This document shows, piece by piece, positions 10,848 through 11,973 of a stretch of 64,000 bases of DNA; position 1 is the stretch's first letter; each line of letters opens with the position of its first letter. Source of the stretch: Candidatus Gugararchaeum adminiculabundum (GTDB lineage Archaea; Micrarchaeota; Micrarchaeia; Burarchaeales; Gugararchaeaceae); assembly GCA_902384795.1 (NCBI GenBank), contig CABMDC010000010.1, positions 1 to 64,000 on the forward strand, read 5' to 3'. The position numbers were made by a program, and so were the translations under genes. The notes below the pieces were generated by a model. The model was not told the DNA's origin. It made no database searches and worked only from the letters and a program-made list of their open reading frames with translations.

Positions 10848-11192
10848 CTACTTTCTCTTTTTTCGTTTTAGTTTGCCGGACTTATGCTTCTGCTTTTTCT
10901 TTCTCGGAGGAAGCTGCTTCTTCGCCTGTTTTTTCGTCACTTTCTTGTGCTTCTTTTGCTTCTTCTTTGGCGCCTTCTTTTTCAGGCGCTCGAACTCGCG
11001 CTTCACCGCATCCTCAAAACTCCTGCGCGCGGTGGTCATTAGCTCGGAATCGGAAAGCAGAAGGGACTGGGTGCGCAGCTTTTCCTGCTGTTCTTTCTGC
11101 TCCTGAAGCTGCTTCTCAGGCCCGAATGCCTCGAACGGGTTCTGCTTCTGGAAAGGATCTGGCTCCTTCTTTTTCTCCTTGTGAGCGAACAT
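10848..11192 (-). CDS. Small lysine-rich protein, unknown function
   Basis: 114 residues from the ATG at 11192, placed 26-34 nt after a minus-strand TATA box (11217-11228). The first 40 residues are charged and Gln-rich, residues 45-75 can form an amphipathic helix (SEFLMT-like then RRSFEDAVKREFERLKKK), and the last 45 residues are almost all Lys, Arg, Gln and Pro. Such a tail is typical of nucleic-acid-binding proteins of ribosome or chromatin, but no family is recognised. It is convergent with the V4R gene and divergent from the structured element. Confidence 0.6.
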   Translation of the reverse strand: MFAHKEKKKEPDPFQKQNPFEAFGPEKQLQEQKEQQEKLRTQSLLLSDSELMTTARRSFEDAVKREFERLKKKAPKKKQKKHKKVTKKQAKKQLPPRKKKQKHKSGKLKRKKRK

Positions 11193-11216
11193 ACGCAACT
11201 GTTATAATTTGCCTGA

Positions 11217-11228
11217 TTTAAATATTTG
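11217..11228. promoter_or_regulatory. Shared A/T-rich TATA region of two divergent transcripts
   Basis: The near-palindromic TTTAAATATTT can act in both directions. On the minus strand it is correctly spaced for the lysine-rich gene; on the plus strand it would start transcription near 11250, just before the folded element and the flavoprotein gene. Confidence 0.45.
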
Positions 11229-11260
11229 CCCGTGGAGGAAATGGCGCCGCTGGTATTACT

Positions 11261-11387
11261 GGCGCCACCGCGCCGGGCGCTGCCGCCAACGAAGCGGTGC
11301 GCTCGAGCGCAAGTCGCCCCTCGTGGCGACCAATCGCGCTAAGCGCGATTGCCGCTGGCGCAGCGCCCATTTGGCGGTGGTGGCGCC
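11261..11387 (+). ncRNA. Highly folded cloverleaf-like element upstream of the flavoprotein gene
   Basis: Reading the sequence gives one nested fold. Outer stem: 11261-11269 with 11379-11387 (9 bp) and 11272-11274 with 11373-11375. Middle stem: GGGCGCTGC 11275-11283 with GCAGCGCCC 11360-11368, then 11285-11288 with 11356-11359 and GCGG 11294-11297 with CCGC 11352-11355. These close a junction holding three perfect hairpins: TGCGCTCGAGCGCA (11298-11311), GTCGCC/GGCGAC (11313-11318, 11325-11330) and AATCGCGC/GCGCGATT (11332-11339, 11343-11350). The element is far richer in G+C than its surroundings and ends 31 nt before the gene. It could be a leader RNA or riboswitch, an independent small RNA, or a mobile palindromic repeat; it is not a tRNA. 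Confidence 0.5.
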
Positions 11388-11418
11388 GATGGCGAAAGTT
11401 GTGTGGGAGTGGCTTACG

Positions 11419-11973
11419 ATGGCTGAGGAAAAGGAAAAAATCGCCTGGTGCATGACCGGTTCGGGGCATTTCCTGAAAGAATCCGTGGATGTGCTGGAAA
11501 AAAGCGCGAGGAAATTCAAGGTGCTGCTTTTCCTTAGCTCCGCTTCCGAGGAGATTTTGAAAATTTACGGGCTTGCGGGTCGGGTTGAAAAACTGGGGCT
11601 GAAAACCATCAGGGAAAAGGAACAGGGGAAAAGCTTCCCTGCGATTGGGGCGATGTATGGCCATGATTACAAACTGGCGGTGGTGGCGCCGGCAACTGCG
11701 AATACGGTGGCGAAAATCAGGTGGGGAGTAAGCGATTCGCTGGTGACGGGTGTTGTGGAGCAGGCCCAGAAAAACAGGATTCCTGTCGCAATTATGCCCT
11801 GTGATTTGAAAGCCGAGCAGGAAACGACTTTGCCCGATGGGACAAGGGCGAAAATCTACCCAACGGAAATTGATTTGGAAAATGTCGCTGAGCTGAGAAA
11901 TGGTAAAAGGAAATATTTGCAAGTGGTAAGCGGGCCGGATGAGCTTGCGAAGAGAGTTCTTGAGGGGATTTGA
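11419..11973 (+). CDS. Archaeal flavoprotein (AfpA/DmrB-like), probable dihydropterin reductase
   Basis: 184 residues from the ATG at 11419. The open frame extends back to 11209, but that part runs through the folded element and encodes an implausible Arg/Trp-rich stretch, so it is excluded. The N-terminus (KIAWCMTGSGHFLKES) and the VVAPATANTVAKIRWGVSD segment are typical of the archaeal flavoprotein family related to AF1518 and to dihydromethanopterin reductase DmrB, which bind FMN in a Rossmann-like fold. With the next gene being dihydropteroate-synthase-like, reduction of a pterin carrier is the likely role; electron transfer only is the alternative. Confidence 0.75.
   Translation: MAEEKEKIAWCMTGSGHFLKESVDVLEKSARKFKVLLFLSSASEEILKIYGLAGRVEKLGLKTIREKEQGKSFPAIGAMYGHDYKLAVVAPATANTVAKIRWGVSDSLVTGVVEQAQKNRIPVAIMPCDLKAEQETTLPDGTRAKIYPTEIDLENVAELRNGKRKYLQVVSGPDELAKRVLEGI

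Follow-up and report, generated by a model that had tools for sequence, protein, structure and literature searches.

A branched palindromic repeat upstream of an archaeal flavoprotein gene is very likely an old copy of a MITE-like element with IS5-type ends

A folded element upstream of a flavoprotein gene

Intergenic regions that fold strongly can hold a leader RNA or a repeat, and one such region in Candidatus Gugararchaeum adminiculabundum raises the question of which of the two it is. The window analyzed here is a stretch of 64,000 nucleotides (contig CABMDC010000010.1, positions 1 to 64,000 of the forward strand), and all positions given below without a locus handle refer to it. Its gene repertoire and type of promoter mark the host as archaeal. 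The element is 127 nt long (11261–11387) and precedes a flavoprotein gene. The sequence-only reading had considered both a leader RNA that senses a flavin or pterin and a mobile palindromic repeat.

Folding confirmed the interrupted stem and the three hairpins that had been noticed at this locus (11298–11311, 11313–11330, and 11331–11351). The minimum free energy of the element as RNA is −90.3 kcal/mol, compared with −64.4 ± 3.8 kcal/mol in shuffled sequences (z −6.9, 0/200). The minus strand folded as RNA gave a z of −6.6, and DNA folding parameters gave a z of −7.8. The G+C content reaches 70% in the element and is 49% across the window. The earlier judgment that chance is an unlikely origin agrees with these RNA and DNA values and with the recurrence of similarly folded copies; because copies with an identical fold exist elsewhere, a chance fold is excluded. 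The parts of the element, all on the plus strand, are as follows.

11261–11387, plus strand: whole folded element, the repeat core; folds as RNA and as DNA
11261–11274, plus strand: trunk segment 1, 5′ side, pairing with 11373–11375 and 11377–11387 around a 1-nt bulge at 11376 (helix 1 of the fold)
11373–11387, plus strand: trunk segment 1, 3′ side (helix 1)
11369–11372, plus strand: 3′ bulge within the conserved CATTTGGCGG; in the fold and kept across copies
11275–11288, plus strand: trunk segment 2, 5′ side, pairing with 11356–11368, with a 1-nt bulge at 11284 (helix 2)
11356–11368, plus strand: trunk segment 2, 3′ side (helix 2)
11289–11293, plus strand: 5′ bulge within the conserved CCGCCAACGA; in the fold and kept across copies
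11294–11355, plus strand: four-way junction, with a short closing stem (11294–11297/11352–11355) and three arms (helix 3)
11298–11311, plus strand: arm P3, a palindromic hairpin with a TCGA apex (helix 4 and apex survey)
11313–11330, plus strand: arm P4, with a conserved GTC/GAC base and a variable tip (helix 5)
11331–11351, plus strand: arm P5 (helix 6)

The same anatomy characterizes the family of copies described below. From the outside in, the family trunk consists of segments of ~8 bp, each followed by a 1-nt bulge, ~3 G-C pairs, and a bulge of 4–5 bases. The outer large bulge lies on the 3′ side and the inner one on the 5′ side, and the junction of P3, P4, and P5 follows. The sequence CCGCCAAATG, which is the reverse complement of the 3′-bulge CATTTGGCGG, agrees with the 5′ bulge motif. 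One of the strands has the bulge motif CCGCCAAnnn when read from the left, and the opposite strand has it when read from the right.

Genomic setting and the case for a leader RNA

The surroundings of the element in the window are listed below.

10848–11198, minus strand: divergent upstream ORF (ATG 11192), 114 aa, lysine-rich, without a Pfam match
11216–11225: TATA-like tract ATTTAAATAT
11241–11260, plus strand: outer flank of the element, ATGGCGCCGCTGGTATTACT
11419–11973, plus strand: downstream flavoprotein gene (PF02441; ATG 11419)

The element does lie between the TATA-like tract and the flavoprotein start, as had been noted. However, the position of the tract fits the minus-strand ORF no less well, at ~28 nt upstream of its ATG at 11192 and ~200 nt from the flavoprotein ATG at 11419, and therefore the tract need not mark a flavoprotein leader. 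An in-frame extension of the flavoprotein ORF to a TTG at 11209 runs through the element and is outside the PF02441 domain. The same holds for ORFs that read through other copies: the Pfam domain, where found, is located outside the element. A search of genome contigs for an orthologous flavoprotein locus gave a distant cyanobacterial match only.

A flavin- or pterin-sensing leader RNA or riboswitch that serves the flavoprotein (pterin) gene would account for the strong RNA fold, the location just upstream of this gene, and the covariation reported below. Comparison with Rfam, which had been proposed for the TPP, FMN, and THF models, gave no gathering-level match in the window; at E < 1 there were two weak matches to bacterial sRNAs, both far below gathering. 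Furthermore, other copies of the element adjoin unrelated genes (IF-2B, KH domain, FAD oxidoreductase, and calcineurin-like), and several copies, such as L010, L023, and L030, are antisense to both neighbors under a rough ORF choice, which makes a flavin- or pterin-sensing role of the element unlikely. Given also that G-U pairs amount to ~3% equally on both strands and that better-kept copies bear mobile-element ends and target duplications, we regard a leader RNA at this locus as extremely improbable.

Distribution of the cloverleaf family

A BLASTN search with a 171-base query found seven places in the genome that contains the window (1.47 Mb in 26 contigs), all of which fold alike. Covariance models built on these seven places (R1) and on 21 copies (R2) found ~19 places in this genome and further copies in three genomes of the same order (G001, G003, and G006), while the element was found in none of the 12 other genomes of the order. 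The R2 model had zero matches in a 577-kb set of unrelated DNA. A search of the phylum (301 genomes), with stricter filters that may miss weak matches, added two further genomes with strong matches (G049 and G063). The five other genomes with copies all belong to the same class, and the rest of the 301 were without copies in this search. A third model (R3) was built on 17 copies from other genera only, with own-genome copies excluded. This model still recovers 11263–11384 in the window (E ~1e-14), which identifies the window copy as a member of the family; the one other match of this model covers these positions on the complementary strand.

Like MITEs, the members of the family are dispersed in several copies and carry no transposase gene. 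In some copies, extra hairpin pairs are inserted in the trunk (L017, L024, L025, L042, and L044), and larger hairpin sets are present in L117–L119 and L123. What first looked like a transposase ORF next to L117/L118 is such a larger hairpin set inserted in the bulge. Viral contigs with the end or core motif were also inspected, and the fold is present in none of them. A two-hairpin module (GCGATTTGTCC..GGACAAATGCGCCCATTTTTCGG..CCGAAAAATCGGGC) was observed in opposite orientations in L024 and L025, with a variant in L017.

Terminal inverted repeats and target duplications

Well-kept copies (L013, L036, L039, L044, and L111–L119) terminate in inverted GGCTCTGYAGAA, and direct repeats of 8–9 bp are found just outside these ends. 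Flanking duplications are perfect (8/8 or 9/9) in L036 (8 bp), L039 (9 bp), L044, L085, and L119, reach 7/8 in L111, L113, and L115, 7/9 in L013, and 6/8 in L116 and L004/L015; L043 has none. In a chance control, 0.3% of random flanks reached 7/8.

The shared terminal inverted repeats of the better-kept copies are not found at the window copy, which has no GGCTCTGYAGAA end in its outer flank and no convincing or recognizable target-site duplication. The segment TGGCGCCG of the outer flank reappears at 11381–11388, although it is nearly self-palindromic and no proof of a target duplication. With neither ends nor a convincing duplication, the window copy is best read as old and immobile, and we infer its former mobility from its membership of the family.

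IS5-type transposons with the same ends

The end GGCTCTGTAGAAW occurs ~104 times in the 301 genomes, compared with ~5 times for a reversed control. At L220, a gene for a 387-residue IS5-family-related transposase begins within 80 bases downstream of this end; the protein matches PF01609 above the cut-off and NF033579 with an E-value of 3e-36 and 126 bits, below the curated cut-off of 140 bits. The same left end is present in seven other loci (L222, L230, L231, L233, L234, L236, and L239), and right ends are present in L232, L235, L237, L238, L240–L243, and L245. These left and right ends are mostly located at contig breaks, as expected for a multi-copy element. Three left/right pairs have perfect 8-bp flanks in common (L236/L232, L233/L235, and L239/L240). 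These pairs, together with the common ends, indicate that the cloverleaf family uses IS5-type ends and target duplication, the duplication having a fixed length of 8–9 bp in the family and 8 bp at the three autonomous insertions.

In these IS5-type elements (L220:1501–1620, L230:2500–2600, L233, and L239), we also observed a pair of leader hairpins ahead of the start codon of the transposase. In the second hairpin, the loop TTATTTGGCG is kept although the stem letters vary in concert, and the 3′ arm reaches right up to the ATG. The sequence CGCCAATAA, which is similar to the letters of these leader hairpins, recurs in the trunk bulges of the cloverleaf family.

Searches of the genome that contains the window (93% complete) with PF13610, PF12762, and PF01609 found no IS5-type partner with these ends and yielded only a SWIM-DDE protein that lacks them. 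A partner transposase in the same genome is usual for active MITEs and is not required for relics. As for other types of partner, no IS6-type transposase (PF13610) was found, and one IS1595-type transposase (PF12762) in G003 has different ends (TTTTTGGTGATT). The SWIM-DDE_Tnp_1 proteins of G000, G001, and G006 are associated with other inverted repeats and are not flanked by the family ends. These proteins are DDE_Tnp_1 transposases with an N-terminal SWIM zinc finger (L199, L200, and L201) and occur as a single copy in each of the three genomes; those of G001 and G006 share 66–67% identity with the own-genome copy.

The suggestion that the element could be a mobile palindromic repeat is therefore borne out by the scattered copies, the inverted ends shared with IS5-type transposons, and the 8–9 bp target duplications. 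It is very likely that the element belongs to a group of non-autonomous, MITE-like transposable repeats with IS5-type ends, as an old copy that no longer moves, and that its pairing is kept at the DNA level. The better-kept members, which have inverted GGCTCTGYAGAA ends, were inserted with duplication of 8–9 bp of the target. These repeats were presumably moved in trans by the transposase of the IS5-family transposons that occur in other members of the phylum. The body of the repeat is a branched palindrome, with a bulged trunk, a four-way junction, and three near-perfect palindromic arms. The window copy itself is probably neutral or affects expression in no more than an incidental way.

Maintenance of pairing and turnover of arms

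In an alignment of 21 copies, 96.6% of the pairs are intact, both sides have changed in 42 of 46 pairs, and changed cells number 226 for both sides vs. ~12 for one side. The corresponding values for the 17 foreign copies alone are 95.0%, 36 of 46 pairs, and 165 vs. ~13; because the structure guided both alignments, the counts lean towards it. The sequence-only reading held that many scattered copies without covariation would favor a repeat. The many copies were found; covariation is massive, yet it is DNA-like rather than RNA-like. An RNA would be expected to have G-U pairs on the strand of the RNA itself; in this family, the G-U share is 36/1313 pairs (2.7%) on one strand and 39/1302 (3.0%) on the other. 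Among 76 four-base apices, 44 are self-complementary (~5 expected), and TCGA is the apex of 35 of the 76 four-base arm loops, across genera (L008–L044 and L111–L118).

These observations also bear on a structured non-coding RNA with a function of its own that was spread by transposition on a mobile element. Conservation of the junction, the bulges, and the bases of the arms, combined with tips that vary, is a feature of many RNAs, and the occurrence of the family is patchy but wide, both of which would suit such an RNA. However, the G-U content is very low and strand-symmetric, and a majority of the four-base apices is self-complementary. In addition, the trunk motif CCGCCAA is found as a 5′ bulge on both strands, as would be expected of DNA more than of a single RNA strand. 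A mobile non-coding RNA is thus very unlikely.

The seven copies in G063, which represent a recent expansion, differ by 4.1% in the trunk, ~23% in P3 and P4 (the value for P4 is based on a gapped alignment), and 9% in P5. The differing arms change in blocks that remain palindromic, and the arm-by-arm pairs comprise 180 Watson-Crick, 3 G-T, 2 A-C, and 7 other pairs. Among pairwise differences, those in P3 affect both sides in 38 cases and one side in 12, while those in P5 affect both sides in 5 cases and one side in 32; because the P5 changes are mostly one-sided, not every arm change is compensated. The copies L111, L115, L116, and L119 also show arm versions in new combinations. The rarity and strand symmetry of G-U pairs and the arm blocks that stay palindromic point to maintenance of pairing at the DNA level, and not by selection on RNA.

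Template switching in replication creates multi-base compensatory changes of this kind (PMC8794818) and is most likely the source of the kept pairing. Switching between the arms of a palindrome would keep the pairing whether or not a cruciform is also selected for. Template switching alone leaves the shared and retained TCGA apex unaccounted for. It is conceivable, if unlikely, that an active process centered on this apex rewrites the arms and preserves the palindromes, for example, by cutting extruded hairpins or synthesizing them anew in the course of transposition; if true, copies would bear different arms on a near-constant trunk through such a process.

Selection by the host would enter if once-mobile copies had been domesticated as cruciform sites, such as for nucleoid organization or transcription punctuation. 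In the own genome, the ends and duplications of L013 and L004/L015 are eroded to the 7/9 and 6/8 matches given above, yet ~97% of the pairs are intact, which would be consistent with such upkeep. Nonetheless, template switching can keep pairing without selection (PMC8794818), no positional rule was seen among the copies, and the element is absent from most genomes of the order, such that domestication appears quite unlikely.

Relation to known systems

The closest known systems are IS5-family transposons and their MITEs (NF033579 IS5_2; PF01609), with which the cloverleaf family shares GGCTCTGTAGAA ends and 8-bp target duplications. Short ORF-less derivatives with the same ends exist in the same phylum, and the short elements L204, L205, and L214 have IS5-type ends but not the cloverleaf. 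Similarity of the family to the autonomous elements is established for the ends only and not for the cloverleaf body. Open-literature searches found no description of the cloverleaf family.

In the keeping of a folded structure, the nearest analogues are mitochondrial palindromes. Fungal mitochondrial double-hairpin elements are mobile, short, intergenic, and G+C-rich, and their fold is kept. The palindromic GC clusters of yeast mitochondrial DNA have these traits as well, and their palindromic units are reported to merge and to be shuffled (PMC4478555). Unlike the cloverleaf family, GC clusters are organellar and have no IS5-type ends, and GC42 (42 nt) targets AG. REP/BIME and REPIN sequences are similar to the family as dispersed extragenic palindromes moved by a transposase in trans. 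REP/REPIN hairpins are short, single or paired, and have a tagged end, an architecture that differs from the cloverleaf. REPs are 20–40 bp long (PMC3733652) and are tied to HUH Y1 transposases (PMC2817692), whereas members of the cloverleaf family are ~130–240 bp long and have inverted ends and 8–9 bp target duplications.

Hairpins maintained by template switching resemble the family in their multi-base compensatory changes and in stems that stay perfect, but those hairpins were described for RNA genes (PMC8794818), whereas the cloverleaf family is mobile DNA. Textbook covariation, with both sides changed in nearly all pairs, thus does not indicate a functional RNA here, and RNA discovery in poorly known archaea therefore needs a test of strand symmetry and G-U content. 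The recent copies, in which different arms sit on a trunk that hardly varies, provide a direct test system for the upkeep of palindrome pairing.

A long perfect palindrome was also observed in another context in G003 (contig C34). In L132:1108–1320, for which ARAGORN with default settings reports no tRNA, a tRNA-like sequence (GCCTTGATAGTGTAGTGG ... GGGTTCGAATCCCGGTCAAGGCG) is apparently split near the anticodon by such a palindrome.
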